Part shown: piece after piece, positions 1 through 16,735 of the stretch
Layout: the number at the start of each line of letters is the position of its first letter
Position numbering within the stretch: the first letter of the stretch is position 1
Source of the DNA: Jannaschia seohaensis
GTDB lineage: Bacteria; Pseudomonadota; Alphaproteobacteria; Rhodobacterales; Rhodobacteraceae
Assembly: GCF_900116765.1 (NCBI RefSeq)
Contig: NZ_UETC01000004.1
Location: 248,001 to 312,000, forward strand
Direction of reading: 5' to 3'
DNA: 64,000 nucleotides
Translations under genes and position numbers: made by a program
The notes under the pieces: generated by a model
Databases searched by the model: none
What the model was told of the DNA's origin: nothing
What the model saw: the letters and a program-made list of their open reading frames with translations, nothing else

Positions 1-4
1 GGTC

Positions 5-649
5 CTACTGCGCCGCGCGGGGATGCGGTTTGATGTCGATCAGGTTCGGCGTCGATCCGCTGCGTTCGAGTTCGAAGCGGCAGGGGTGGCCCGGGCTATG
101 GGCGCCGCAGCTCGTTTCGGTGCAGGTCGCATCCGCTGCGACGAGAACGTGGTAGAGACGGGCAAAGACGGCCGCGTGCCAGTGGCACAGGCAGCCCTCG
201 GACCGTTCGCCCGCGACGAGCGGGTTGTCGGCGATCTCGAAGGTCATCGGATCGACGACCCGGAACCGTCCGGAGCCGACGAAGGTCCAGGCATGGCGGG
301 CGATGGCCCGCGACAGGAGCGCCGCCGAAGGCCCCGCCGGAAGCACCCGGAGCAGGAGTTGCGCCGGACGCGGGATCCGATGGGCGAGGATGTAATCCGC
401 CGTCGCGCGGCCAGCCTCGCCGGCGAGCGCGGGGGCGAGGATCGGCTCCTCCTGGCGGAGCGTGCGATGCAGCTGCGCGGCCTGGGTCTCCGGGATCATC
501 CGCGTGCCGTCCGGCAGGTCGAATATCCCGGCCCGGGCGAGGATCTGGCCGCGCCGTTCCGGGCCGCCCAACCGGTCGAGCACCGGCAGCATCTGGAGGA
601 TGGCGTTGGGGCCGATCAGGGCGGGGCCGGACCGGACATCCTCAGACAT
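5..649 (-). CDS. bchJ: Bacteriochlorophyll 4-vinyl reductase-type protein BchJ (V4R domain)
   Basis: BchJ-type protein of 214 residues, linked to bacteriochlorophyll synthesis (4-vinyl reduction or handling of the cyclase substrate; its exact role is debated for the family). The C-terminal half has the V4R look: an HxW-containing stretch ([13 protein letters not shown]), then a Cys-rich tail ([18 protein letters not shown]). The ATG at 647-649 is chosen because reading further upstream only runs through bchE in another frame. The start overlaps the bchE stop by 8 bp, so the two are translationally coupled in the usual bchE-bchJ order. The reading frame ends at the window edge and the stop is inside the window. 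Assignment to the family is firm, the enzymatic role less so. Confidence 0.87.
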
Positions 650-2306
650 CCTCCATCTGTTGATCGCCGCCGCCGCAGACCCGGACCTCCGCCCCGTTGG
701 GCATCTTGAACGTCTGGTTGCGCTCGGCGGCGCGTTCCTTGCCCTGAGCCCGCAAGGCTTCGCGCCGCTCGGCCGCCCGGGCCGCCTTGTCCGCCGCCGC
801 TTCCCAATCGGCGGTCTGCGCCTCGGCCAGTTGACGGGTTTCGTCGAAGTGGAAATCGACGGTCGACTTGGTCTGCGGACCCCAATAGCCCGCCTTGCCC
901 AGGTCGTAGAAGGTGCGCTGGAACCCGGCCTTGAGGAAGGCATAGAGGCATCCCAGCAGATAGCGGCGGCGGAAGCCGGTGCCGCGCCAAGGATAGTGGA
1001 ACAGCGCCTTCTTGGAATAGAACCGGCGGTAATTGTTCATCACCCCGTCCAGCAATTCGCCCCGGTCCATCGCGGCGGGCTTCATGATCGGGGTGACGAA
1101 ATTGTATTTCGAGAAGTCGTAGATCTCGACCTGATCCTTGAGCTCCTGGAAGAGGGGCGTGAAGGGCCAGGGCGTATACATCGACCAGTTCGCAAGATCC
1201 GGCTGCCAGTCCCAGGCCATCTGATAGGTCTCTTCCAGCGTGTCCGGCGTCTCGTTGTCGAGGCCGACGATGAACTGCGCTTCCACCAGGATATCGGCCT
1301 CCCGCAGGAGGCGGATCGCCGTCTTGTTCTCGTCGACCTTGGTTTCCTTGTTGAAAACGTCCAGCTTCATCTGCGCGGCGGCCTCGGTGCCGAGGCTGAC
1401 ATGGACGAGCCCCGCCTTGCGGTAGAACTTCAGCAGGTCTCGGTCGCGGTAGATATCCGTCACACGGGTGTTGATGCCCCATTTGACCTTGTCGGGCAGG
1501 CCCCGGTCGATCAGCTCCTGGCAGAAGGCGACGAATTTCTTCTTGTTGATCGTGGGTTCCTCGTCGGCGAGGATGAAGAAGCCGACCCCATGGGTCTCGA
1601 CCAGGTCCTCGATCTCGTCGACGACGTCCTTGGGGTCGCGCACCCGGTAATCGCGCCAGAATTTCCATTGGCTACAGAACGAACAGGTGAAGGGACAGCC
1701 GCGCGCCAGGTTCGGGATGGCGACGCGGGTGCCGAGTGGGATGTAGATATACTTGTCCCAGTCGAGCACGGTCCAGTCGGGCTTGATCTTGGAGAGGTCC
1801 TTGACGGTCGAGGCGGCCTCGGTGGCGACGATCTCCTGCCCGTCGCGGAAGGCGAGGCCCTTGATCTTGCGCCTGTCGGCCGGCCAGCGGCCGTCTTCGA
1901 TGGCGAGCATGAGCTCGGTGCAGATTTCCTCTCCCTCGCCGCGGACGATCACATCGACCCAGGGCGCCTCGGAGAGGACTTGCTTGAACATGAAGGTCGC
2001 ATGAACGCCGCCTAGCACCCGAACCGCGTCCGGAACCACATCGCTTGCGACCTTGAGAACATCCTCCGCGCGGTAAATCGACGGCGTGATCGCGGTCACG
2101 CCCACCACATCGGGGCGGATCGCCTCCATGCGCCGCGCGAGTTCCGCGTCGTCGATCTCGTCCGTCATCGCGTCGATGAAATGGATGTCGTCGAAGCCCG
2201 ATTGCCGCAGATGGCCGGTCAGATAGGCGACCCAAGCCGGGGGCCATGTCCCGGCGATCTCCGCGCCGCCGGAGCGATAATTGGGGTGAACGAAAAGGAT
2301 GCGCAT
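642..2306 (-). CDS. bchE: Oxygen-independent Mg-protoporphyrin IX monomethyl ester cyclase BchE
   Basis: Radical-SAM, cobalamin-dependent cyclase of 554 residues that forms the fifth ring of bacteriochlorophyll without oxygen. The N-terminus ([15 protein letters not shown]) starts a B12-binding-type Rossmann domain. The radical-SAM cluster motif CPFTCSFC lies at residues 204-211 (C204, C208, C211). The later part carries BchE-like segments ([24 protein letters not shown]). The ATG at 2304-2306 is chosen because the N-terminus then matches the family; the upstream in-frame ATG would add 21 residues running through the promoter sites. It is first in an operon with bchJ. Upstream lie FnrL-like and PpsR-like sites, which fit low-oxygen expression. 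Confidence 0.95.
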
Positions 2307-2326
2307 GATGAAGTCCCCGGGACAGG

Positions 2327-2344
2327 TGTCACTATGAATAGACG
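2327..2344 (-). promoter_or_regulatory. Second PpsR/CrtJ-like site over the bchE -10 region
   Basis: TGTC-N10-GACG, one base off the PpsR/CrtJ consensus TGTC-N10-GACA. It starts 24 bp from the perfect site at 2351 and covers a -10-like hexamer (TATTCA on the minus strand, 2335-2340). Paired PpsR sites are typical of repressed bch/crt promoters. Binding is inferred from sequence only. Confidence 0.5.
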
Positions 2345-2350
2345 CTAAAA

Positions 2351-2368
2351 TGTCAGGATGGGTTGACA
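2351..2368 (-). promoter_or_regulatory. PpsR/CrtJ operator upstream of bchE
   Basis: Perfect match to TGTC-N10-GACA (TGTCAGGATGGGTTGACA), the palindrome bound by the aerobic/light repressor PpsR (CrtJ). It lies 45-62 bp upstream of the bchE start codon and overlaps the FnrL-like site by 6 bp, so repressor and activator should exclude each other. Confidence 0.7.
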
Positions 2369-2376
2369 CACATCAA
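2363..2376 (-). promoter_or_regulatory. FnrL (FNR-type) activator site upstream of bchE
   Basis: TTGACACACATCAA matches the FNR consensus TTGAT-N4-ATCAA with one change. Its centre (2369.5) is 41.5 bp upstream of a start point near 2328, predicted from the TATTCA -10 at 2335-2340. That is the class II position where FNR replaces a poor -35 box. bchE is a known FnrL target in Rhodobacter; the site here is inferred. Confidence 0.65.
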
Positions 2377-2582
2377 GCGAATCGGGGGGAGCGGGCAGAA
2401 TTCTGCGGGTGTCACTGCTGATCGGGCCCTTTGGTTGTCATTCCGCCGTGGCAAGGCGAGCCTGTAGGGGCGGGCCACCGCCGGGCGGAAAGCAAGTCTC
2501 TGGCGGTCATCGCCCGGCATGGCCGGTCCTGTAGGGGCCGGGCCCATCTCGGGGCGGAGGCAAGCGCTCATCGAGAGACAGC

Positions 2583-3401
2583 TCAGGCCCGGGGGCGAGC
2601 AGCGGTCCCCAGAGCATCGAGCCAAAGCGCGCGGAGGGCGGGCATCGCGCTCGCGCGGGCCGTTGCCAGCAGCAGATGATCGTCGATCTCTGCGACCAGC
2701 ACATCGTTCTGGACCTGACCCACGCCCGCGACGATCAGCAGGCGCCAGCGCGTGGGCGCGCCCGCCGCCCCTTCTGGCGCATTCATGCGGCTCAACAAGT
2801 CGCTGGAGACGCGAAAGAGCGCCCCCGCATCGGCCTCCGGCCCCTTGACCGGATCGACCGTGTCCCCCTGGACGATCACCGCCGATGCGATGAGATCCTG
2901 TGCCTTGTCGAGAAACCGGCGCAGGCGCGCCGCCGGTTCATCCTCTGCATCGGCGGACTGCAAGCGGGCGAGCAAGCGCTCCACCGGAAACCCGGCCCTG
3001 GTTGAGGTGCCGCCCGCGACAAGCGCCTCGGAGCGCACGGAGATGTCGCTGGCCCTGCTGCATAGGCCGGCCAGCGTCTCCTCGAATGCGGCCGCCGCAT
3101 TTTCGATCGCGGCGCTGTCGTCGCGATTCTCGAAGCCATTGGGGGCCGATGCTGCGCCGCTGGAGTCGAGGGTGGAAAAGGCCAGGAGCCGGCCCATCTC
3201 GGCATCGCAGCGCAACCGCTCCGCCCCGTCGAAGGCGAAGATCAGGCGTCGGCCGAGCATCGTGTCCGCGAGTCGCCGGAGGACGAGCGCCGCGCCCTCC
3301 GCCCCGGTGGTCAACGTCCGGCCGGTATCGGCGCCGAGCCCGTATGCCGACGCGCTGGTCAGCGCCTGCCAGAGCGCGGGTTCGGTCGCATCGCCCGCCA
3401 T
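2583..3401 (-). CDS. Unrecognised last gene of the kinase/GTPase operon
   Basis: A 272-residue protein of unknown function. I recognise no family. It is Ala-rich with no signal peptide or membrane segment. A short hydrophobic strand (TRWRLLIVAGVGQVQND) near residue 220 and a helical C-terminus are visible. The ATG at 3399-3401 follows the upstream stop after one base, so it is coupled to the Roadblock-like gene. As the last gene of an eight-gene operon it may be a partner of the GTPases or the Roadblock protein; that is inference from position only. Confidence 0.7.
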   Translation of the reverse strand: MAGDATEPALWQALTSASAYGLGADTGRTLTTGAEGAALVLRRLADTMLGRRLIFAFDGAERLRCDAEMGRLLAFSTLDSSGAASAPNGFENRDDSAAIENAAAAFEETLAGLCSRASDISVRSEALVAGGTSTRAGFPVERLLARLQSADAEDEPAARLRRFLDKAQDLIASAVIVQGDTVDPVKGPEADAGALFRVSSDLLSRMNAPEGAAGAPTRWRLLIVAGVGQVQNDVLVAEIDDHLLLATARASAMPALRALWLDALGTAARPRA

Positions 3402-3402
3402 G

Positions 3403-3777
3403 TCACGCCAGCGCCGCGCGATCGCCCGGCAGGAGATCGTCGAACACCCAGGCGGCGGCTTCGAACACATCGTCGATCGCGGCCTCGGGGGCGAGGATGC
3501 AGCCGAAGACCTCGTCGCCCTGCGGCGTTCCGCGCTGAAAGACCTGGCACCCGGTTTCCGTTGCAAGCATGGCCCGCATCATCCCCATTTCTGGCCCGTT
3601 CCCCGGCGCGGCGGAGAGCAGCCGCGCCGCGAGACCGCACAGCGCGTCCAATTCTTCCTGCGGCCATTTCAGATCGCTGTCCCAGGCCAGCACCGTGCCC
3701 GTGGACAAATCCATCAGAAGCGCAATCTCGCAGCCGGCGATCTTGTGCCTGAAGTTTCTGAGCGCGTCGTGGGTCAT
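3403..3777 (-). CDS. Roadblock/LC7-like small protein
   Basis: A 124-residue protein whose first half (AGCEIALLMDLSTGTVLAW, then a helix rich in LDALCGLAARLL) resembles the Roadblock/LC7 fold: a strand pair with 'D-x-x-TG-x-V-L-x-W' followed by an amphipathic helix. Roadblock proteins such as MglB dimerise and act as regulators of small GTPases. Lying directly downstream of three GTPase-like genes, it could be their GAP or scaffold. Family assignment is by pattern only and needs a profile search. The start is 69 bp after the upstream GTPase stop and no other gene fits in that gap. Confidence 0.65.
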   Translation of the reverse strand: MTHDALRNFRHKIAGCEIALLMDLSTGTVLAWDSDLKWPQEELDALCGLAARLLSAAPGNGPEMGMMRAMLATETGCQVFQRGTPQGDEVFGCILAPEAAIDDVFEAAAWVFDDLLPGDRAALA

Positions 3778-3846
3778 CGGCCTCCGGGAACAGCTGACCT
3801 CTGGTCTAATCCGCCCTCGTTAAAGCAAGGTTAGCGTGCGGACCTC

Positions 3847-4698
3847 TCACGCGCCGGGCTGCGCATATGCCGCGCCGCGCGGGTCGCGCCTCAGGGCGAT
3901 GCGACGCGGCTGAATGCCCTCTGCGCCGGTCCGTGGTTCCGGGGCGTCCTGCGCGCGCGTGGACGCCGCGAAGGTCACGGTGCCCGTGCGCGGCGCCTCC
4001 AGAGGCTCGACCATCTCCAGAAGGCTCGCAATGAAGGCATCCGCGCCGGAGGCGTCGAGCGCGGCCATGTCCTCGCCCGCCGCCGCCGCCGCGGTCAGCG
4101 AGATCGGCAGAACCGCCTTGAAGAGACCGTCGGTTTCGTGGCGGACGCGCGTGAGAATGCGCGCGCGGTCCGCCTCGGACGCGATCTTGTCGATCCGCGT
4201 GATGAGCAGGAGGCTGCGCTCCCGGAGCCGATCGGGCAGGCTCTCCCACAGTGTCGCTTCGGTCTGTCGCCAAGCTTGCGTCGCGGGCGTGCACCAGACC
4301 ACGCCATCGACATGCTCGATCATCCGTTCCCAGATATCCTCGGGCAGGTTCGGGTCCGAGGTGCCGGGCATGTCGATCAATTCGCAGAATTCGAGCACAT
4401 CGGCCGAGAGCGACACACAGACGGCCTGAGCGTCGCGATGAGACAGCGTCGTCAGGTCTTCGGCCGTGATCGGCTGCTCGGCGCCGTTCATGTCGATGCG
4501 TGTCATGCGGCTGCGGCCGCCACGATACCAGATCGGAGGAAGCTGTGTCGCCGTGACCTTGACCGGCGAGATGGCGTGGCCCAGCAGCAGATTGGCCAGC
4601 GTGCTCTTGCCCGCGCTGAACTCCCCCATCAAGGCGATCCGCGGGTGGCAAGGCGGATCGGCGGGCGGGGTCGCATCGGTCGGATGGTCGGTGCTCAT
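3847..4698 (-). CDS. Dynamin-like GTPase (small)
   Basis: A 283-residue GTPase of the dynamin/EngB-like P-loop group. G1 GEFSAGKST is at residues 25-33, G3 DMPGTSD at 109-115 and G4 TRID at 167-170, followed by a KxxSEADR stretch. 'GEFSAGKSTLANLLLG' is typical of bacterial dynamin-like proteins, but the length is only enough for a G domain plus a short tail (RALRRDPRGAAYA at the C-terminus). Its ATG overlaps the upstream GTPase stop by 4 bp (ATGA). With the 659-residue GTPase it may form a heteromeric pair, as seen for other bacterial dynamin-like pairs; this is inferred. Confidence 0.85.
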   Translation of the reverse strand: MSTDHPTDATPPADPPCHPRIALMGEFSAGKSTLANLLLGHAISPVKVTATQLPPIWYRGGRSRMTRIDMNGAEQPITAEDLTTLSHRDAQAVCVSLSADVLEFCELIDMPGTSDPNLPEDIWERMIEHVDGVVWCTPATQAWRQTEATLWESLPDRLRERSLLLITRIDKIASEADRARILTRVRHETDGLFKAVLPISLTAAAAAGEDMAALDASGADAFIASLLEMVEPLEAPRTGTVTFAASTRAQDAPEPRTGAEGIQPRRIALRRDPRGAAYAQPGA

Positions 4699-6674
4699 GA
4701 TGCGATCTCCATCGTTTGGGCGAGATTTTCGGATGCGTTCGACGCCCCCGCGCGCGCGAGATCGAGCAGGACCCTGCGGTTCGCATCCAGGAAATCACCG
4801 AGCGCCGCGCGCAGGGAGGCCTCGTAGCCCTTCGCATTGTCGCTCAGGAGCGTCTGGAGGATCGGCTGGGTTTCCTCGTGGATCAGGCGCTCGAAATCGT
4901 CGGCGCAGGCCTGGTAGCCCTTCCGGCGGCGCCAAAAGCGGGTCCACCAGGTGCCGCGCAGGTCGAGCGCGATGGTCTGGCCCAGCACCACGGGCGCATC
5001 GGGCGCGGGCAGGGGCGGGGCCTCCAGCATGGGCGGCGCGTCCCTCAGATCGAAGGCCTCCCGGTAGAGCGCGTTGAACTCGGCGGAGACGGCGGCCATG
5101 CCGTCGGTGCCATGGCGGCCGACCGCGCGGACATAGCGTTGAAATGCCGAGCGGAGGAGTGCGCGCAGACCGCAGGAGTCATAGCGCCAGACCGCCATCT
5201 CTCCGTGAAGTTCGAGATGCGAGACCAGCGCCACCAGGGCGCGCCGAACGAAGACCTGCCGCGCGCCGTCGACCCGCTCTTCCAAAGCCGCGTGCAACGG
5301 CCCGAGCCCGTCCGCGAACCGGCGGCGCGCCCTTTCCTCGATCTCGGAAATGGCCTCTTCCAGGGCCTCTGGCGGAATCCGGCAAACGCTGCCCGCGCCA
5401 CGCCGCGCGGCCGCGACGGCATCGGCGGTGAGAACCGAGCGATCGAGATTGCCGATCTCCACCTCGATCTCGCGCAGGAGTTGCGCGCCCGCGCCGGATT
5501 CGATGCGGGCCGCTATGATCCGGCCCAATGCGGGGACACCGGAGAGGGTCCAGGCCATGTCCTCCAGAGAGCCGAAGGCATGCTCCTCGCCGACGCCTGC
5601 CTCCGCCCAACGGACCATGGCGTCGACGCTGTCTTCGGGCAGCGCCTCGACCTGACCCGCCATCGCCTCCGCCGCCCAGGCGCCGCTCCCGAAGATGATC
5701 TCGGCATTCTCGGGGCCTTGATGTTTGCGCAGGGTGTCGAGGATCGAGTCGCGGATCTTGGGGATGTCCGATGCGGGGTCGTCCAGCTCGTCGATGCGGT
5801 TGACGAAGATGACGACATCCCGCGCGCGCAGGTTCGCGATCATCCGGATCAGGGCCAGATCGACCGTGGTCAGCGCCTGCGTCGCCGCAAGCACCATGAC
5901 GCAGAGACGGCTGCCGCGCAGCGAACTGATGGTGATCTGCTCTCGGATCATGAAAGTGTCGTTCACGCCGGGCGTGTCCCGCAGGCAGAGAGGCAGCGGC
6001 AGGCCCGGCTGCTTCAGCCACAGATCGGCCGTGCGGGTGATATCCGCAAAGCGGCCCTTTTCGCGGTCGCCGCCGGCCTCCTCCCAGAAGTCGTCGCCCA
6101 TGCAGACATAGCGTTCGACCAGAGCAGCATCGAAGCGGTCGTAGTCATGGGACTGGCCGAGCAGCATCTCAAAGCGACGGCCCAGCCGCTCGCGGGACTT
6201 GGCGCGCATCTTTTCCATCTGGGCGCGGACCTTCGCGACCTCGTCCTCCGCCCCGGCGCGGCCGGCGAGTTCGCCCAGCCGCCCGCCCTGGCGCACGAGC
6301 CGGGTCCATTCCTCTTCGCCAAAGAAGGTAAAGGTGGCGTTGGCGGTCTGGCGCTCCGGTCCCGGTTGCAGGTGAAGCCCCGTCACGACCGAGGTCCAGG
6401 GGTTGACGTCGGCGGGCAGGAGACCCTGCCACCCGGTCATCGCATTGATCAGCGTGGTCTTGCCCGCCTTGACCTGGCCGATGATGGTGACGGTCGGCTC
6501 GAAGTCGCGGATCTTGCGCAGTAGCTGCTTGGCCTTGGCGGCGATCGCGCCGTTGCCGGACGCGCTGAATTCCACCAGTCGGGCGTCGAGCGCGGACAGC
6601 CGGGCCGCCAAGGGGGCGAAGCCGGAATAGGTCTCGGTCAGCAGCCTCGAACGGATCGGATCGTCATGGTCCAT
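4695..6674 (-). CDS. Dynamin-family GTPase (large)
   Basis: A 659-residue dynamin-like GTPase. G1 GQVKAGKTT is at residues 66-74, G3 DTPGVND at 233-239 and G4 NRID at 292-295. Between G1 and G3 is a long charged helical insert (about residues 130-200). The C-terminal half is mostly alpha-helical, with a basic/aromatic patch (GTWWTRFWRRRKGYQ, near residue 580) that could touch membrane. The start at 6672-6674 is preferred over the in-frame ATG 11 codons upstream because an AAGGAG motif lies about 8 nt ahead of it. It is coupled by a 4-bp overlap to the next GTPase. Likely role: membrane-associated remodelling, inferred from family. Confidence 0.87.
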   Translation of the reverse strand: MDHDDPIRSRLLTETYSGFAPLAARLSALDARLVEFSASGNGAIAAKAKQLLRKIRDFEPTVTIIGQVKAGKTTLINAMTGWQGLLPADVNPWTSVVTGLHLQPGPERQTANATFTFFGEEEWTRLVRQGGRLGELAGRAGAEDEVAKVRAQMEKMRAKSRERLGRRFEMLLGQSHDYDRFDAALVERYVCMGDDFWEEAGGDREKGRFADITRTADLWLKQPGLPLPLCLRDTPGVNDTFMIREQITISSLRGSRLCVMVLAATQALTTVDLALIRMIANLRARDVVIFVNRIDELDDPASDIPKIRDSILDTLRKHQGPENAEIIFGSGAWAAEAMAGQVEALPEDSVDAMVRWAEAGVGEEHAFGSLEDMAWTLSGVPALGRIIAARIESGAGAQLLREIEVEIGNLDRSVLTADAVAAARRGAGSVCRIPPEALEEAISEIEERARRRFADGLGPLHAALEERVDGARQVFVRRALVALVSHLELHGEMAVWRYDSCGLRALLRSAFQRYVRAVGRHGTDGMAAVSAEFNALYREAFDLRDAPPMLEAPPLPAPDAPVVLGQTIALDLRGTWWTRFWRRRKGYQACADDFERLIHEETQPILQTLLSDNAKGYEASLRAALGDFLDANRRVLLDLARAGASNASENLAQTMEIAS

Positions 6675-6710
6675 CAGCTTTCTCCTTCGTTCGGCCCTGC
6701 GGCCCAAAAA

Positions 6711-7871
6711 TTAGGCCGCGAGCGCGTGACAGACCTCGCGCCGCATTTGGCTCAGCAACATGAGGCCCTCCGTGGCCTGCCTTGGCTGGCCCTCGATCTT
6801 GAGCAGCTGCACCAGCTCTTGGGCGTTGATCAGCTCGGCATGGAGGGCGGGGAAGGCGTCGGCAAAGGCATCGTCCGCGTCGGCGAGATCCAGCAGCGCG
6901 TCGAACGAGGCCTGGAGACGCGCGAGCACGCGGGTGGCGTCGTCCTCCGTCAGGCCGTGGCGGGGCAGGCCCCGTGCCAAGTCCCGGGCCGCGTGGCGCA
7001 TCTGCCAGACCATTCGGGACAGGGCCGCATGGACCGATGGCGATGGTGTGGCGATGGCGGCCGGTTCGGGGCGCGCGCGTTCGGATACAAGCTCGGGGCG
7101 CGCTTCCATGGCCGGGAGCGGGACGTCTGGCGCGTGCTGTTCGAGCAGGAAGGCGGCGACATCGAGATCGGCGGCGCGGGCCGTGTCGATCATGTCCGCG
7201 AGGCGCCGGCGCAGCGTCTCCACCTGAGCGGGGCAGGGCGCGTCCGCCCGCCCGTCCGCCGGCACGACGCAGGTCTCGTAGCCCTGAAACGACCCGCCGG
7301 CCCGGGCCCGGTCAAGAACCTCCTCGCCCGCGGTCGCCACCAGCAGGGCGTGGTGCTTGAGCGCGTCCGGCCCCGCCTCCCAGATCCGGCGCTCGGCTGC
7401 GTCCCAAGCGCGTGTGCACCACAGCGCGATGTCGCAGCGCTGCGCCGCCCAGGCCATCGCGGCCATCATGTCGCGCGGCGCGGCTTCGGCGGCGACGTTC
7501 AGCACCGACATGCGCTCCAGCGCGGGGTGGCTGACGGCGATATCCGCGAAGAGCACCCCAGGGGGCGCGACGAAAGGCAGATCCAGCGGCACCGTGGCGG
7601 TCTCGCCCCCCGCCAGGGTCAGCCGGGCGGCGGGCTCCGTGGCCCGGCGGAGCAGGACTGGGACGGATTGCGCGCCGGGCCGCAAGATCTCCGCCCCGGC
7701 CAGCGCGTTTACGATCGCGGCCTTGCCCGCGCCCGGCAGACCGAAGACGCCCACCCGAACGGGCGCTTCCAGCCGGTCGATCAGGCGCGCGATCCGGTCC
7801 GCCGCACGCCGTGAGAGCCCGTCCACGCGGGACAGCGCCTTAAGCTGGGAAAGGGTCGCTTGGGCCGTCAT
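6711..7871 (-). CDS. Degenerate P-loop GTPase-like protein
   Basis: A 386-residue protein that starts like the neighbouring dynamin-like GTPases (VRVGVFGLPGAGKAAIVNAL) but has lost key residues. The P-loop GLPGAGKA (44-51) has Ala in place of the Mg-coordinating Ser/Thr. The G3 position reads FADIAVSHP rather than DxPG, and the G4 position reads VATAGEE rather than N/TKxD. The C-terminal third is helical. It may bind nucleotide poorly or not at all and act as a regulatory partner of the active GTPases. The ATG overlaps the phosphatase stop by 4 bp. Whether it is a pseudoenzyme is inferred from motifs. Confidence 0.8.
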   Translation of the reverse strand: MTAQATLSQLKALSRVDGLSRRAADRIARLIDRLEAPVRVGVFGLPGAGKAAIVNALAGAEILRPGAQSVPVLLRRATEPAARLTLAGGETATVPLDLPFVAPPGVLFADIAVSHPALERMSVLNVAAEAAPRDMMAAMAWAAQRCDIALWCTRAWDAAERRIWEAGPDALKHHALLVATAGEEVLDRARAGGSFQGYETCVVPADGRADAPCPAQVETLRRRLADMIDTARAADLDVAAFLLEQHAPDVPLPAMEARPELVSERARPEPAAIATPSPSVHAALSRMVWQMRHAARDLARGLPRHGLTEDDATRVLARLQASFDALLDLADADDAFADAFPALHAELINAQELVQLLKIEGQPRQATEGLMLLSQMRREVCHALAA

Positions 7872-8776
7872 CGGACGAACCGATCCATGAAAGCCGAGGC
7901 GAATAAGGCCCGAAACTGCGCGATCCCCGCCCGGATCCGGGTGATCACGGCGGATCGGGCGGCGGGCCAGGGCATCGCCGCTCTCGGCGCGGCAAAGGAC
8001 GGGCGCGGCTTGACGACGATGACCGACACGTTGTCCTGATCCGGGTCGCCCGCGCCCGCTACGGCGTCCAACAGGGCCCGCGCGATGGCCTCGCTGGGGC
8101 AGTCTCGATGGTCGGCGAGGATTTGACGGACCTGGCCCTGCGCCAAAGCCGCCAGACCGTCGCTGGCCATCAGAAGGATATCGCCCTCGGCCAAGGCAAC
8201 CGGCTCCGCGGGACAGTCGATGCAATTGATCCGCGCCCCCACCAGCGCCGAGGTGAGGCAGCCCCTCTGGGGATGGGTGCGCGCGGTTTCCGGGTCCATC
8301 ATGCCCCGCTCGACCAGCAGGTCGATCTGGGGCGCAAGCGAGTGATCCTCGTTGAGCCGCGACAGGGCACCGTCCCGGAAGAGGTAGAGCGAGGAATCGC
8401 CCACCGACACCCAGCTGAGCCGCTCGTTCTGTAAGATGGCGGCGACGACTGTCCCGCCCATGCCCTCTTTGCCGGAGCCATCCTCGACCCGCGCCCTGAG
8501 GCTGTTATTGGCGGCATGCACGCCGTCGAGCAGGTGCCGGCGCGCCTGCTCCTGATCCAGTGGCCGTGTCAGTCCTGCGAGGGGCAGGGCGCCCGAGAGC
8601 GACGAGACGATCACCCGCGCCGCGAGGTCGCCATCGTCATGCCCGCCCATGCCGTCCGACAGCACCGCGAAGCCGTATTCGCCGTCGTCGTCGAACCGGG
8701 TGGCGACGACGTCCTCCTGACGCTCGCGGCATCCGAGGGCCACCGCGGTGGCGACATCGGCGCGCGGTTCAGACAT
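7868..8776 (-). CDS. PP2C-family Ser/Thr protein phosphatase
   Basis: A 302-residue cytoplasmic PP2C (PPM) phosphatase. Metal-binding motifs are RQED (residues 19-22) and LSDGMGGH (39-46). A later MASDGL motif and an SVI strand (NVSVIVVK) near the end of the domain complete the family pattern. About 45 residues after the catalytic domain are basic and helical, with no clear membrane segment. Its likely substrates are the kinase and its targets in the same operon. The ATG overlaps the FHA gene stop by 8 bp. Confidence 0.9.
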   Translation of the reverse strand: MSEPRADVATAVALGCRERQEDVVATRFDDDGEYGFAVLSDGMGGHDDGDLAARVIVSSLSGALPLAGLTRPLDQEQARRHLLDGVHAANNSLRARVEDGSGKEGMGGTVVAAILQNERLSWVSVGDSSLYLFRDGALSRLNEDHSLAPQIDLLVERGMMDPETARTHPQRGCLTSALVGARINCIDCPAEPVALAEGDILLMASDGLAALAQGQVRQILADHRDCPSEAIARALLDAVAGAGDPDQDNVSVIVVKPRPSFAAPRAAMPWPAARSAVITRIRAGIAQFRALFASAFMDRFVR

Positions 8777-9764
8777 CGCCCCCGGCCTTCTGACGGGTGT
8801 CCGACCAGCTGAACTCCGGCCCGCACAGGGCGACAAACCGCAATGTCGTCTTGCCGATGCGGATCTGGTCACCATTGCTCAGTTCGGTGGTCGAGACCAG
8901 GGGTTTGCCGTTCAGCCGCACGAGGTTGGACTTGCCGCCATGTCCGATCAGAACCTGGTTCTCCTCCTCGTCATAGGCGATGGAGGCGTGGTTGTTGCGC
9001 GAGATGCTGTCGTCGCCGAAATCGAGCGTCACGGTCTGATCCTCGCCACGGCCCAGGGTCGAGAGCCCGGCGGCCAGCGCAAAGGAGGTGCCGAAGCCCG
9101 GCCCGTCGATGATCACCAGGAAACCGATCGGGCATTTGACCGCCTCGGCGGTTGCCGTGGTCTGTCCGGGCGCGAACAGGTCCGGCACGAGGTCTTCGGC
9201 GTGGAAGCCCAGCAGGCGCGTTCTGACACGCCGGTTCTGAGGCGGGGCGGGCGGCGCGGTCCGGGCCGTCTCCTGCGCCGGGATCTGCGGCGCCGCTGCC
9301 GGGGCGGCCGGGCTGTCGGCGGACGCGGCGGCGACGACGCGATCCGTCAGATCGGAAAGGGAGACCTCCGGCGGCGCCTCCGGTTCTGGCCGCACCGGCG
9401 GTTCGCTGGCGGGTTCCAGGTCCCAGATCTTGCTCTCCGGCGGGGTCATGAGCGGCCCGCCCGGCACATCCGAGGGGGGCTCCTCCTCCACGATCTCTTC
9501 CGCATTCCCGTCATCTGCCATGGTGTGGAGCGGCGATTCCGGCTCCCAGTGCTGGGGCTCCTCCAAAGGTGCCGGACGGCTTGGCGGCCGTTCATGGGCC
9601 GGCGGTCTCATCGCGTCGATCGGGTCGAGCAGGACGAGCGGCTTTTGGCCCGGCGCTTCGGCGGGGAGGTCGTCGCTGACAGGCGGCGCAGCCTCCTCCT
9701 GCGGCATCTCCGGCGTGATCAGGGAGGGCCGTCGGCGCGCGACGATGTTTCTGAAGGCAGACAT
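8769..9764 (-). CDS. FHA-domain protein
   Basis: A 331-residue protein with a long Pro/Glu-rich, probably disordered N-terminal region (about residues 1-200) and a C-terminal forkhead-associated domain (about 215-315). FHA hallmarks are LGRGEDQ, SISRNNHASI and LNGKPL followed by NGDQIRIG. FHA domains bind phosphothreonine, so it should read the neighbouring kinase's output; the disordered part may itself be phosphorylated. The start is 3 bp after the kinase stop. Confidence 0.9.
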   Translation of the reverse strand: MSAFRNIVARRRPSLITPEMPQEEAAPPVSDDLPAEAPGQKPLVLLDPIDAMRPPAHERPPSRPAPLEEPQHWEPESPLHTMADDGNAEEIVEEEPPSDVPGGPLMTPPESKIWDLEPASEPPVRPEPEAPPEVSLSDLTDRVVAAASADSPAAPAAAPQIPAQETARTAPPAPPQNRRVRTRLLGFHAEDLVPDLFAPGQTTATAEAVKCPIGFLVIIDGPGFGTSFALAAGLSTLGRGEDQTVTLDFGDDSISRNNHASIAYDEEENQVLIGHGGKSNLVRLNGKPLVSTTELSNGDQIRIGKTTLRFVALCGPEFSWSDTRQKAGGDV

Positions 9765-9767
9765 GGA

Positions 9768-11126
9768 TTAATCCTCCTGGGGTTGGAGCGCGGGTTTGGT
9801 TGAGACATCGCGGCGCAACGTCAGAAATCCGGCGACCCACTGGCCGAAGCGCGAAGGCGTCCGGGCCTTGCTCGCCGCCCTGCGCCCTTGGTGGTCGGGG
9901 CCGTGCCTGGCCTTGCCTTGCGCGTGCCGCCGCCTTGCATCGGCCTCTTCCGTCTCGCGGCGCAGGGCTTCGGCGGCTTCGATCTCGGCCCGGATCTCTT
10001 CGAGGTCTCTGGTGACCTTCGCCCAGTGTTCGCGTTCCTTGGCCCGTTGAATTTCGATCGGATCCGGCCGGGTGACTTCGATGGCGGCTTCGGGTTCGCG
10101 CCTGGATTGGCTGATGCAGACCGCCGTTTCGCGCACGAGTTCCGAGATCTGGCGCCGGAGATCCTGGCCCAACTCGCCCGCTGGCGCGGGCGTCGACGCT
10201 GGCGCGCCCGAGATGGCCTGGAGCCATTCCTCGGCGCTTTTCATCCGGTCTTTCGCAAAGAGATTCAGGCATTTGTCGATCGCGGCGAGAAACGCATCGT
10301 CATAGGACGGGATGCGCCCGGCGAGCGGCTGGTAGGGATCGGGATCGTTCTGCGCCACGGCGGCCAGGCGCACGGTGCTGTTGGGCGGCGGGCATCCCCG
10401 GATCAGATGGTGGAAGGTCGCCGCCAGCGCGTAGAGATCGCTCGATTTCCGCTGGGAGCTGCCGGCCAGATAGAATTCTTGCGGCGAGTAGCCGTCCTTG
10501 ACGGTGTGAATGCGCGACAGCATCCGGGTCGCCCGTGCCGCGTTCTGGCGCGCGGCGCCGAAATCGATGAGCACCGGCATCCCGTTTGGGGCGAGCAGGA
10601 TGTTGTCCGGCGAGATGTCGCGATGCAGGATCCCGTTCTCGTGGACATAGGCCAGGGCCTTCAGCAGCTGATCGAGCAGCCGCCGCACCTCGTCGGGGCC
10701 AAGCCGGTCCGGCGTCGTCTCCAGGACGTCGAAAAGGTCGGGGCCCTCGACGAAATCCATCGCCATATAGGCGGTGCCGTTCTCCTTGAAGATCTGATGC
10801 ACGCCGACGACGTTCGGGTGTGAGAGCTGCGCCAGCGCCCGTGCCTCGCGCTCGAACAATTCCACGACGCGGCCGAAATCGACTTCGTTCGACACCGAGC
10901 GCAGGCGCACCTTGCCCTGCCTGCGGCAACACATGGAGCCCGGAAAGCACTCCTTGATGACGACCTTCCGGCCCAGGCTGTCATGGGCGAGATAGGTGAC
11001 GCCGAACCCGCCCGAGTTGATGTAACGCAGAACAGTATACTGCCCCTGGCACATCTTGGTGCCCGGCTGCAGCTCGTCCGCCATCGGAGAGGCTGCATCC
11101 GTCGCCAGAGCAGGCTCCTGTTCCAT
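9768..11126 (-). CDS. Hanks-type Ser/Thr protein kinase
   Basis: A 452-residue soluble kinase, first gene of the operon. Glycine loop SGGFGVTY is at residues 38-45, the catalytic Lys at about 58 (VVIKE), HRDISPDN at 168-175 and DFG at 188-190. The ECFPGSMCCRR stretch after the Lys is typical of one alphaproteobacterial PknB-like subgroup. The C-terminal third is a long charged region (EAAEALRRETEEADARRRH) likely to form a coiled coil. There is no transmembrane helix or PASTA domain. The ATG at 11124-11126 has an AGGAGG about 10 nt upstream; the longer in-frame start would add 41 residues with no support. Confidence 0.9.
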   Translation of the reverse strand: MEQEPALATDAASPMADELQPGTKMCQGQYTVLRYINSGGFGVTYLAHDSLGRKVVIKECFPGSMCCRRQGKVRLRSVSNEVDFGRVVELFEREARALAQLSHPNVVGVHQIFKENGTAYMAMDFVEGPDLFDVLETTPDRLGPDEVRRLLDQLLKALAYVHENGILHRDISPDNILLAPNGMPVLIDFGAARQNAARATRMLSRIHTVKDGYSPQEFYLAGSSQRKSSDLYALAATFHHLIRGCPPPNSTVRLAAVAQNDPDPYQPLAGRIPSYDDAFLAAIDKCLNLFAKDRMKSAEEWLQAISGAPASTPAPAGELGQDLRRQISELVRETAVCISQSRREPEAAIEVTRPDPIEIQRAKEREHWAKVTRDLEEIRAEIEAAEALRRETEEADARRRHAQGKARHGPDHQGRRAASKARTPSRFGQWVAGFLTLRRDVSTKPALQPQED

Positions 11127-11943
11127 GATAGCGCGGCCTCCTGTTCTTTGGGGTCGGACAATAGCTCCCGGCGCAAGGGTCGCGGGTTCGCTGAAATATG
11201 GCGCGGATTCGGCCCGAAACCTGACACGCAGGAGTCCGAGTTTTGACAAGTAAGCGGGATGTTAGACTTCTGCATTCCGCTCAAATTCAGAGTATCGGGC
11301 CAATCGCGGGCGCATCGCCGTCATCTGTTTGGCGGCGACCTTGATCCTGGCGGAGTGACGGCGCGATCGGTGATTGCCAAACGTGGCCTCGCCGTCGCGA
11401 CCCGGACAGTCGCGGCGGCGAGAGGCCTCGTTGGACAAGGCAGCCGACGCGGTCACGGCATGAAACCAGACTGATGGCTCGGCGGCCTGGGGCCGCCGAT
11501 CCCGTCGATCGATGGCCGCCCCCGGATCGCGGGTATGGCGCGGGATCCATCCTGAGGCCAACAAGGAAACATCGGAGGCCCGAGCGGTCGAGATGACCGG
11601 GCGCGCCATCGGCGATCCCCGATGCTGCTCCGTCTGCGCCAAATTGCGCGCGCGCCCGATCACCACGTGTCGGACCTCCAGCGCCGCATCGCGGTCCCGA
11701 AGCGCTACACCGCGAAGGGCATGCCTGTCTCCGTGGCCCTCAGGTGACTGCCTCCGGGGAAGGGCAAACTGCGATCAGGCCCCGATGTGTGCAACACCGT
11801 CCGACAAGCCTTGAACACGGTCTGTGTGAGGACCACGCCGATCATTTCGGCGTCGCCGGAGACTCGCCCTTCGTTCAGTTCGGGCCTTCACGCGGGGGCG
11901 TTCACATCGCTATGCCACCCAGCCGCGCGCGCGAGCCTCCAGG
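11127..11943. other. Intergenic stretch without a supported gene
   Basis: About 800 bp between the kinase start and the RTX gene stop. Short open frames occur on both strands but none has a family-like sequence, a good ribosome binding site or consistent codon use. The part next to 11126 should hold the promoter of the kinase/GTPase operon; I see no convincing -35/-10 pair. The rest could be a decayed gene that I do not recognise. Confidence 0.5.
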
Positions 11944-14900
11944 TCAGAACAGCATGACGTCGTCCAAGCCGAGAGCCGGGCGGCCCTCGAAGGTCGCGAT
12001 GATCTGTAGGCCCTCCGGTCCGTCCGGCCCGTCGATATCGACCGACAATTCCTTCGTGCGGAGCCGGAACGCGGCCAGCCCGTTATCCAGCAAGTCCAGA
12101 ACCTCGGCCCTGTCGAGTGGCCTTAAATTGATCCGGCTGTTCCCCAACCCGAAGAATTGATCGTCGAGCAGCAATTTGTCGGAGGCGTCGAAATCCGTGA
12201 TCGTGCCATTCGGCGCGACAGCGGTCCCCTGGAACGCGAAGTAATCACGGCCGGCGCCGCCCGTCATGGTGTCGTTGCCGCCACCGGAGATCAGGATGTT
12301 ATCGGCCTCGTTGCCGATCATTTCGGTCGCGCGCGCGTCGCCAAAGATCCAGGAGTTTCCGCCGCCTTCTGCGGCTTCGACACGCTCCACGCCGGTGCCC
12401 TCGACCCGGAACTTGACCCGCTGCTCAAGGATAACACTGTCGAAGCCCTCGGTGTCGCGGACCCTGTCGCGCTGGTCGTCGACGATATAGGTGTCGTCGC
12501 CCCCTCCGCCTTCCATCGTGTCGGCGCCCGAGCCGCCATTCAGGGTATCGGCGCCGGGGCTGCCTTGGAGCGTGTCGTTGCCGGCGGTGCCCTCGAGCAC
12601 GTCATCGCCCGCGACGATGATGCCTGTCGGATCGCTCACCACCCGCTCCGGCGTGCCGAACCCATCGGTATAGGAGACCTGGACCGACAGCTCCGTCCCC
12701 ACATCCTCTGCGGCCAACTCGTAGCTCTGGCCATTGGCGCCGGTGATCTCGGCCCCATTGCGCAGCCATTGGAAGGCGAAGGCGCCAAGCCCGTCCGCAT
12801 CGGTGAGCGCGTCGGTGCGCGCGACGAGGGTTTCGCGCTGCTCAATCAGGCCATCGATCGTCGGCGCACCTTCCGGCAGGTCATTGATGTTCGCGATGGC
12901 GGCCGTCTCACCGCTGACGACAGACTCGTCCGTGCCGAACCCGTCCACATAGCCGACCCGCAAGGTGATCGCCGCCCCGACATCTGCCTGCTCAAGCAAG
13001 TAGGTCTCGGCGGTCGCATCCGCGATCTCGACGCCGTTCCGGAGCCATTGGTAGCTGAACGCCCCAAGTCCGTCTTCGTCCGCGATACCGGTCGTGACCG
13101 CCGTAAGCGTTTCGCCCTGCCGCGCCGTCCCGAGGACGGAGGGACTGCCTTGAGGCGCGTCGTTGACATTCGTGACGGGCGCCCCGGCGGTGCTGACGCT
13201 GACGCCGTTCCCTCCGAACCGGTCCGACACCGTGGCGCGCAGGACGATCTCGGCGCCGACATCCTCCTGCGTCAGCAGATAGGTCTCGCCGGTGGCTTGA
13301 TCGATCTCAACACCATCGCGCAGCCAGCGATAGCGGACGGACGCGATCCCATCCTCGTCGCTCAGGCCGGAGATATCCGCCGAGAGCGCCGCCCCCTCCT
13401 GGAGGTCGCCGGTAACGGCGACACTCCCCTCCAGGGCGTCGTCCACATTCTGGACTCGGGTGAGGACGGTTCTCTGTACCTCCTCCTCCGTGCGGAAGAG
13501 GTCCGTGTAGCGGTACACGACCGAAATCTGAGTTCCGACATCTTCCTGGCCCAGCTGATAGGTGGCAGCGGTCGCGCCGGCGATTTCGACGTCATCGCGA
13601 AGCCACTGATAGGTTCCCGTCACCGAGAAACCGTCGGTATCGGTGATGCCGCCGAGATCGACGCGCAGCGTGGCGTCTTCGATCATATCGCCGGACACAG
13701 CGAGGCTGCCGGTCGGCGTGTAGTTCCGCGCCGTGTTCTCGAGCGTCAACGAGCTGCCATCGTGGAAGGTGGCAACGCGGCTGGTGTCTTGCTGAGTGAC
13801 CGTGATCTGCGCCAGTTCGGCGGCGGTGAAGGCGTTGAAATCCAACTTGTCGCGGCTGCGCTGATAATCGGTGATGACGTCGCTTCCGAAATCCGGCGCG
13901 AACACGAAGACATTGCCCTCCGAAAAGCTCGTTCCGCCCGTGAGCACATCGTCGCCAGGGCCAGCGATGAGCGTGTCGGTCCGCGAGCCTCCGATTAGCG
14001 TGTCGTTGCCGAGCCCGCCGTCGAGGTAGTCATCGCCTGAATTGCCTTCGATCGTGTCGTTGCGCGTCGTGCCGATGATACGGTCGTCGCCGTTTCCGCC
14101 CAGGATCGAGTCGGCGTTCACGTAGCCGGTGATGCCGCTCAGGTCGAAATCGCCGCCGGTCGATGTGGCGCGCAGGGGGCCTTGCGACAGGTCCAGCCGT
14201 TCGACCGAGGCCGCGGCGTCCAGACGCAGGTAGTCAAGACCGCCCGGGATCGCGAGATAGGTGTCCGTCCCCTCTCCGCCGAGGATCGTGTCCTCGCCGC
14301 CATTGCCGCTGATCGTGTCGTCGCCGCCTCCGCCCTCGAGCCGGTTGGCCTCCAAGTCTCCGATCAGCCGGTCGCCCTCGGCGCTGCCGACGAGGTTCTC
14401 GAAGCCGAGCAACGCCTCGCGATAGGGCGTCTCGAACGTGGCCACATAGCTGTCGGCCAGCGAGAGAATATGCGCGCCGGATCCCGCCACCGAGAACGTA
14501 TCGTTGCCCGCCCCGCCGTCGAACCGGTCGATGCCGGCCGATTGCACGACGAGGTCGTCGCCGCCAAGCGCCGCGATACTGTCGTCGCCGGCCGTGCCGA
14601 GGATAGTGTCGGCGTACGCGCTGCTGGCGGGGGTTGCGTCGTAGGCCGCCGCGTTCTGATAGCTCACCCACTCTTCCTCGGCGCCGCTCCCATCCCAGAA
14701 GGCGATGACGCCATCCTGGGTCGCGGCGACTACGGGCCGCAGGTTGTTGCCGACGGTGTCGTCGAGCGCGTTGCTCATGTTGGCTGGCGTCCCGAGCGTG
14801 CCGTCCTGGGCGATCGGGATCATCATCGCGTGGGCGCCGAAGACGGCGCCGTCGGGGTTGTTGGGGTCATTCACTTCGAGCGCGAGGTAGGCGCCGCCGC

Positions 14901-16260: not shown

Positions 16261-16474
16261 AGTCTTAACCCGTCACACTGTGTTCTGTGGAGGTTTTGAA
16301 AAGCGCCGGGCAGATGTGCGCAACGCTGCGGCCACTGTTTGTATGATTTTGTTGCATATTCCTTACATCTGACCCCTCCAAAGACCTCCGCCGTCGCGCT
16401 GCCCGTAGTGACTGGCCTGCCTCGGAACAGGCCGCTTGGCGGAGCATCAAGGACCGACTGGAGGAGGTCTCGGC

Positions 16475-16735
16475 CGGGGGGCGCTGGCCCGCGCCTTCCG
16501 CTGGTAGGAGATGCTGGACTCGGGCGCGCAAGCCACCATCGCCGAACTGGCCGAGCGGGAAGGGACCGCGTCCTCTTCCATGACACGCATCCTGCGTCTC
16601 AGCCGGCCGGCACCCGGCATCGTCGAGGCAATCCTGGATGGGCGGCAGGGGCCGCAGGTGACGCTGGCGCGGGTGCTCGAGCCGTTTCCGACTGAATGGG
16701 GACTACAGCGGGAGAGCGTGACGCATAGGTCGTGA
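16475..16735 (+). pseudogene. Remnant of a recombinase-associated HTH-like protein
   Basis: The frame GALARAFRW-stop-EMLDSGAQATIAELAEREG, then a piece ending ILDGRQGPQVTLARVLEPFP, matches a small protein I recall next to serine recombinases and DUF2924 proteins in alphaproteobacterial mobile elements. A TAG at 16505-16507 stands where the family has a Gln codon, and the 5' part is out of frame, so it is dead. The naming is from memory of the family. It marks the start of the accessory region. Confidence 0.55.

Follow-up and report, generated by a model that had tools for sequence, protein, structure and literature searches.

The 64,000-nucleotide stretch of Jannaschia seohaensis DNA considered here (the window) carries an eight-gene operon in which a Ser/Thr protein kinase, an FHA-domain protein and a PP2C-family phosphatase are joined to a large and a small dynamin-like protein (DLP-L and DLP-S), a paralogue of the small one (gene 4), a Roadblock-like protein (gene 7) and a protein of no recognised family (gene 8). 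Membrane reshaping is the work of dynamin-like GTPases in other organisms. Sequence comparisons establish the protein families, the conserved catalytic and nucleotide-binding residues, the conserved gene order and a largely joint inheritance. The best reading of this arrangement is that a Ser/Thr phosphorylation switch controls a heterotypic dynamin pair of the Campylobacter type at the inner membrane, a proposal that we hold tentatively and to which we give a little under an even chance. A paired-dynamin operon is already known in bacteria; what is added is a module for phospho-signalling and, probably, a Roadblock component.

Conservation of the gene set

All eight genes run in one direction, from position 11126 to 2583 on the minus strand, in the order and at the coordinates that an earlier note on this DNA had given; its statement on spacing is right too: of the seven junctions, five either overlap or leave a gap of no more than 3 base pairs (bp). 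From the first gene to the last, the junctions are a 3 bp gap (kinase–FHA), an 8 bp overlap (FHA–PP2C), a 4 bp overlap (PP2C–gene 4), a 36 bp gap (gene 4–DLP-L), a 4 bp overlap (DLP-L–DLP-S), a 69 bp gap (DLP-S–gene 7) and a 1 bp gap (gene 7–gene 8).

With DLP-L as the only bait, a collection of 84,980 species genomes yields 40 loci, all bearing genus or family names that we take to be Rhodobacterales. In thirty of these, the full set of eight is present with order and strand unchanged, and nine of the other ten are truncated by a contig end. With gene 8 as the only bait, 40 places were picked by hand down the match list rather than at random; L144, L145 and L146 were left out as duplicates of L077, L072 and L042. 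The core order of eight genes is present in 26 of the remaining 37 loci, if the solute-binding genes inserted in L153 are ignored; L160 and L181 are truncated by contig ends, and L162 is without a recognised kinase. Co-occurrence in a conserved order, which the earlier note had named as a test of its proposal, is thus found with either bait. Since the same order recurs in 30/40 and 26/37 loci, the clustering is far above chance, and synteny rejects a chance cluster.

Conserved residues are counted below over the 61 complete eight-gene loci, the window copy included. Across these loci, the identities of the individual genes correlate with those of DLP-L (Spearman 0.48–0.70, with species relatedness not removed). 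For the window kinase, FHA protein, PP2C, gene 4, DLP-L and DLP-S, the four nearest relatives are those of L042, L043, L044 and L046; for gene 7, L079 ties with these four at equal identity, and for gene 8, the most divergent gene, L043, L042 and L046 come top. The same genome has a second complete eight-gene copy on another contig (L008, 4552–18473), again in the same order, and the two copies share just 15–42% identity gene by gene. Seven genes of the second copy have their nearest relative among loci with a transmembrane kinase (L148, L150, L157, L158 and L171); the exception is its kinase, which is nearest to that of L163. Judged by these identities, the gene set is largely inherited jointly.

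Several variants exist. In rearranged (type II) loci (L170, L176 and L183, with L180 and L177 similar), DLP-L, DLP-S, gene 7 and gene 8 lead, and further GTPase genes and the kinase come after; FHA and PP2C genes may sit beyond the fetched stretch. Leisingera and Ruegeria hold plasmid copies, including split and rearranged versions (L026, L028), and every one of the 18 plasmid records that match DLP-L is classed as non-mobilizable. A metagenome-assembled genome of rumen Loktanella (L077/L144) keeps a small GTPase, DLP-L, DLP-S, the Roadblock-like gene and gene 8, and encodes two proteins without a Pfam match (6742–7671 and 8170–8967) at the place of the phosphorylation genes. L164, L168 and L169 hold the kinase, the FHA protein, one small GTPase and gene 8, with PBP-OmpA genes within or beside the operon.

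Gene 8 matches at E 0.001 occur in 89 of 292 sampled Rhodobacterales genomes (about 30%) and in 36 of 112 genera; two of these 89 matches have E values above 1e-5, and the presence of gene 8 is not proof of the whole system. Among 240 genomes of the class, gene 8 is found in the genome of origin and as one marginal match over 76 positions (3e-4); 249 genomes of the phylum give four matches, all in the same family. The order, class and phylum samples overlap. DLP-L is present in 10 of 60 relatives, the genome of origin counted, and beyond the family its profile aligns only with short, generic G-domain stretches. Distant members may be missed, because only the best few candidates per genome were scored. 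By gene 8, this is a patchy accessory system of Rhodobacteraceae that is practically confined to one family in the sampled genomes. Neither a pattern scan of viral contigs nor 50,697 phage records gave a match to the system, and a viral origin or cargo was rejected on that ground.

The phosphorylation module

The kinase, FHA and PP2C assignments of the earlier note pass Pfam, with key residues intact. In the kinase, HRD is kept in 98% and DFG in 100% of the loci. The PP2C protein has D22, D41, G42, D206, D248 and N249 conserved in 61/61 loci and also matches NF033484 at 1.7e-40, though under the curated cut-off of that model. The FHA domain keeps G238, R239, S255, R256, H259, N280 and N285 in every locus. 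With these residues, the three proteins have the make-up of a module like the threonine phosphorylation pathway (TPP) of the type VI secretion system (T6SS), and their activity is predicted. As passages of PMC4348357 describe, that pathway (PpkA, PppA, Fha1, TagQ-T) likewise unites a kinase, an opposing phosphatase and an FHA protein; phosphorylation of Fha1 triggers T6SS assembly, and PppA opposes PpkA. The output here would be a dynamin pair and not a secretion apparatus. No T6SS genes are among the annotated features of five plasmid neighbourhoods; other flanks were seen in part, and no T6SS profile was run.

The FHA protein begins with a long N-terminal stretch rich in proline, in which few positions are conserved; a TRxxGF motif (T182, R183, G186, F187), invariant in 61/61 loci, comes after it and lies just before the FHA domain. 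In a search of the PDB, its nearest solved structures are GarA and OdhI (2kfu, 2kb3). The alignment with GarA covers the FHA domain and the segment upstream of it and starts at residue 189, close behind T182; Thr182 itself, a few residues before, is outside the HMMER alignment. GarA and OdhI bind their own phosphothreonine, and the PDB entry title ‘Rv1827 pThr 22’ fits this. A GarA-like switch is suggested because GarA and OdhI are the nearest relatives and the threonine just upstream of the domain is invariant. The N-terminus is much longer here than in these proteins, and no metabolic-enzyme target is implied.

Dynamin-like GTPases

Both dynamin assignments of the earlier note are borne out by Dynamin_N profile matches (Table 1). 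The G domains of DLP-L and DLP-S have P-loop, G3 and G4 motifs; the P-loop is present in 61/61 loci for either protein, and the two genes are adjacent in all of them. The best PDB match for DLP-L is chain A of 5owv (1.1e-13), and that for DLP-S is chain C of the same entry (4.1e-9); from their lengths of 732 and 614 amino acids (aa), these chains are presumably DLP1 and DLP2. In Campylobacter jejuni, Cj-DLP1 (84.5 kDa) and Cj-DLP2 (71.2 kDa) are also encoded by adjacent genes and form a 2:2 tetramer that tethers membranes, with hydrolysis requiring heterotypic dimerisation of the G domains (passages of PMC6104087). A membrane-acting pair is suggested here because DLP-L and DLP-S best match different chains of 5owv and the lengths fit Campylobacter DLP1 and DLP2. 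The Trp/Arg-rich stretch of DLP-L contains three tryptophans, W576, W577 and W581, that are invariant in 61/61 loci. Differences from the Campylobacter pair are the size of DLP-S (283 against 614 aa) and the third, degenerate copy added here (gene 4). The Cj-DLP operon putatively includes an HcpA-like gene, and the same passages mention no kinase, FHA, PP2C or Roadblock protein (PMC6104087).

Gene 4, described in the earlier note as a degenerate P-loop protein, gives only sub-threshold GTPase matches in Pfam (MMR_HSR1, 0.094). Aligned with the DLP-S profile by hhalign, it scores a probability of 99.8% (E 1.4e-27, 209 columns) with a common W-C ... W pattern. The P-loop GxxxxGK[ST] is detected in 34/61 loci and is absent from the window copy (GLPGAGKAA). 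The description is therefore accurate for the window copy, and gene 4 is more precisely a small-GTPase paralogue, degenerate in roughly one locus out of two. The profile of gene 4 also matches gene 6, and the other way round; the two genes were counted as two small-GTPase slots and separated by position.

The chief rival to the membrane machine is a soluble signalling hub, in which the kinase, FHA protein, PP2C, Roadblock-like protein and GTPases would together make up a switch that recruits an effector, as RdcA/RdcB do with DgcE, or places growth machinery such as MreB, comparable to MglA/MglB polarity. We regard it as possible, if rather unlikely. Its model is E. coli RdcA/RdcB (YjdA/YjcZ, CrfC), a two-gene operon in which a dynamin-like GTPase and a small partner without known relatives act in signalling by activating the cyclase DgcE; RdcA is a soluble protein (passages of PMC6510439). 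DLP-L weakly matches the CrfC family (NF007368, 2.4e-6, far under the cut-off), and DLP-S, a bare G domain, has a Roadblock-like partner; both points favour a hub. Against it, DLP-L retains the length of membrane DLPs and the invariant Trp/Arg motif.

Gene 7 and gene 8

In the earlier note, gene 7 had been called a Roadblock protein. Pfam gives this no support: none of 49 family members matches Robl_LC7 (PF03259), even at E 1, and 60 related genomes give no Pfam Robl_LC7 match. Nor is there a convincing match in Pfam or the PDB by sequence. Profile–profile comparison gives moderate, collinear support. Against 29 Robl_LC7 domains (29 of 30 loci were used; L096 was left out, as its frame was not recovered), hhalign scores 26.5 with a probability of 25% for a profile of 45 sequences; with 83 sequences, from a deep alignment that excludes frames of at least 180 aa, the score is 30.1, the probability 54% and E 1.3e-4, over 115 columns that are collinear end to end. 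None of 150 column permutations does as well, the highest score among them being 20.1, and reversal of the profile gives 11.6. True Robl subsets pair with each other at 93–99% probability; gene 7 pairs with single subsets at just 0.2, 24, 6.5 and 0.4%. Gene 7 is likely, though unproven, to be Roadblock-like. In the MglA–MglB system, too, a small Roadblock-like protein stands beside a small GTPase; the GTPases here are of the dynamin family, and a Ras-like MglA is not among them.

Gene 8 directly follows gene 7 in all 61 complete loci. As the earlier note had it, the protein is unrecognised: there is no Pfam match for the window protein, none that convinces for the family, and nothing in the PDB better than E 0.17. 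That it might be a second Roadblock protein was rejected (hhalign probability 0.4%).

Kinase subtypes and flanking genes

Two kinase subtypes can be distinguished. In 19 of 74 loci, the kinase has at least 600 aa and a predicted membrane segment, in 51 it has none and in four it is ambiguous, as judged with a simple hydropathy window on the usual scale. The window copy is of the soluble and the L008 copy of the transmembrane type. The extracytoplasmic part of one kinase has a PDZ match just under the cut-off (3e-4). Candidate envelope sensors of the periplasmic ligand-binding type (proteins with PBP plus OmpA domains, others with LysM or SBP_bac_3 domains, and others with PilJ domains) accompany 12 of the 19 transmembrane-kinase loci and none of the 51 soluble-kinase loci, counted within the fetched stretches and with query proteins drawn from such transmembrane-kinase loci. 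The nominal p of 5e-9 is overstated, because of the origin of the queries and because the loci are not independent. In L008, a PBP-OmpA protein and two relatives of the PilJ family come after the operon. The sensors beside transmembrane kinases therefore suggest that the system is tied to the envelope in this subtype. They resemble the upstream signal-transduction proteins of the T6SS pathway, as far as passages of PMC4348357 describe these.

In 12 loci of the Silicimonas/Boseongicola group, a single clade, mreB comes after gene 8 in the same orientation (for example L059 7656–8690 and L063 14577–15614, with ten more loci), in eight of them within 230 bp. This placement recalls the mycobacterial pknB-rodA-pbpA-pstP-fha cluster. 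Together with the sensors in 12/19 transmembrane-kinase loci, the position directly upstream of mreB in eight loci supports a phosphorylation-switched dynamin system. It also speaks for a hub, against which it can be said that mreB is found in just 12 loci of related genomes and that no fixed effector gene is apparent, since no flanking family occurs in more than 14 of 94 loci. The flanking genes identified include ABC and TRAP transporters, mreB, envelope sensors and metabolic genes; the identification comes partly from 25 of 71 families listed.

The earlier note had also raised a defence module, here taken as an anti-phage or abortive-infection system in which, once the cell is infected, the dynamins harm or shield its membrane. 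The distribution of the operon is patchy and partly plasmid-borne, and PADLOC lists the dynamin-like LeoA as well as kinases related to MADS and PD-T4-6, with matches to mad6 (2.4e-50, kinase) and LeoA (4.8e-9, DLP-L). These matches lie within the kinase domain or the G domain, and at 140 bits the NCBIfam MAD6 model stays below its cut-off of 460; for LeoABC and MADS, there are partial kinase and G-domain matches only, and not several genes at full score. At 1e-15, PADLOC matches one of 78 flanking proteins (78 of 104 selected were scanned; the 26 omitted by hand include sensor genes). Gene 8 is practically restricted to one family in the sampled genomes, phage and viral collections give no match, and the ligand-binding envelope proteins of one subtype do not point to phage. 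Neither the flanks scanned nor the restricted range of taxa speaks for defence, and we consider it improbable.

Proposed mechanism

In the proposed mechanism, the kinase and the PP2C phosphatase would set the phosphorylation state of the FHA protein, and this state would control the DLP pair. The kinase would phosphorylate the invariant Thr182 and so switch the FHA protein, in the manner of GarA/OdhI, to and fro between an open form and one bound to itself; the FHA protein would then bind or release the GTPases. DLP-L would contact the bilayer, perhaps via its Trp/Arg motif, and would tether or reseal the membrane once the G domains of DLP-L and DLP-S pair. Gene 4, which at the window locus is a degenerate DLP-S copy, may compete with DLP-S or hold it, and the Roadblock-like protein and gene 8 may scaffold or activate the GTPases. 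For the transmembrane-kinase subtype, the input might be a periplasmic or peptidoglycan signal. Membrane remodelling, one of the two models in the earlier note, thus survives as the best reading, albeit a conjectural one.

A number of observations weigh against it. Synteny is the sole basis for coupling the phosphorylation module to the GTPases, each coupling step being conjectural. RdcA shows that a dynamin-like protein can act in soluble signalling (passages of PMC6510439), and DLP-S, in contrast to Cj-DLP2 with its 614 aa, comprises hardly more than a G domain. The window kinase has no predicted membrane segment, and seven of the 19 transmembrane-kinase loci are without any of the sensors searched for. 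One of the 40 DLP-L loci (L077) has no kinase, FHA or PP2C gene. Three of the 37 gene 8 loci (L164, L168 and L169) have no recognised DLP-L, so that the dynamin is not indispensable everywhere, which also favours a hub. Finally, more distant DLP pairs occur without the other genes (L037–L041, and L029 as far as its record goes); the DLP pair therefore looks like a wider unit in Rhodobacteraceae, of which the eight-gene set would be one assembled version. Between a soluble hub and a membrane machine, the sequence data do not decide.

It is conceivable, if doubtful, that the operon represents a hitherto undescribed class of bacterial membrane machine. Ser/Thr phosphorylation, relayed by a GarA-type FHA switch, would gate the assembly of its dynamin heteropair; a third dynamin-related GTPase without catalytic activity and a Roadblock scaffold would tune it, and in one subtype ligand sensors anchored to peptidoglycan would drive it across the inner membrane. 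If true, this would be a bacterial counterpart of the phospho-regulated eukaryotic dynamins. To our knowledge, little is known of how bacterial dynamin-like proteins are regulated. The operon would make their phospho-control directly testable in culturable bacteria, and it would provide a case from bacteria in which the GTPase met by a Roadblock-like protein is a dynamin and not a Ras-like one.

Relation to described systems

The earlier note knew of no described system with this set, and no description of the gene combination was found in the open-licence literature. The nearest described design in that literature is that of the actinobacterial GAP1-N2 GTPase systems, where a link likewise exists between a GTPase system, an active kinase and a phosphatase of the PP2C family. 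These have a standalone vWA protein in place of FHA and are conflict systems of multicellular bacteria (passages of PMC7159879); the words ‘dynamin’ and ‘roadblock’ do not occur in the main text of that paper. Dynamin and FHA are both named in PMC7016017, in separate contexts in the passages concerned.

Operon features and neighbouring genes

The features of the operon are collected in Table 1. Rfam gives no match at gathering thresholds over positions 1–16500 of the window.

Table 1. Genes and motif of the eight-gene operon, in order of transcription.
Feature	Position	Strand	Evidence or remark
Gene 1, Ser/Thr protein kinase, 452 aa	9768..11126	-	PF00069, 1.7e-31
Gene 2, FHA protein, 331 aa	8769..9764	-	PF00498, 5.5e-9
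Gene 3, PP2C-family phosphatase, 302 aa	7868..8776	-	PP2C_2 PF13672, 9.5e-9
Gene 4, paralogue of the small dynamin GTPase, 386 aa	6711..7871	-	hhalign against DLP-S profile
Gene 5, large dynamin-like GTPase (DLP-L), 659 aa	4695..6674	-	Dynamin_N, 7.7e-10
Trp/Arg-rich motif of DLP-L, residues about 570–588, LDLRGTWWTRFWRRRKGY	4911..4967	-	candidate membrane contact (putative function)
Gene 6, small dynamin-like GTPase (DLP-S), 283 aa	3847..4698	-	Dynamin_N, 5.3e-12
Gene 7, Roadblock-like protein (likely), 124 aa	3403..3777	-	hhalign against Robl_LC7 alignment
Gene 8, unrecognised protein, 272 aa, marker of the system	2583..3401	-	without recognised family

A radical SAM and B12-binding protein resembling BchE, its gene being the bchE of the earlier note, is encoded 213 bp downstream of the operon (642–2369, minus strand), separate from the reaction-centre genes, which are on another contig (C16). 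The proximity might suggest that the operon helps to remodel intracytoplasmic membranes for photosynthesis and is placed beside bchE for that reason. At the level of genomes, a reaction-centre match (Photo_RC) is indeed associated with gene 8 (49/89 carriers against 70/203 non-carriers, p 0.0012). The association is not seen at the level of genera (19/36 against 32/76, p 0.32); moreover, a reaction-centre match is missing from 40 of the 89 carriers, the genome of origin has its reaction-centre genes on a different contig from the operon, and the five annotated plasmid neighbourhoods contain no photosynthesis genes. Neither defence nor photosynthesis is thus supported, given one PADLOC match among 78 flanking proteins and a genus-level p of 0.32. 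We consider a role in photosynthesis very improbable; the position beside bchE is probably due to chance, as the earlier note had suspected. On the other side of the operon, 817 bp upstream of the kinase and on the same strand, lies the gene for a 1438-aa RTX (HemolysinCabind) repeat protein (11944–16260, minus strand).

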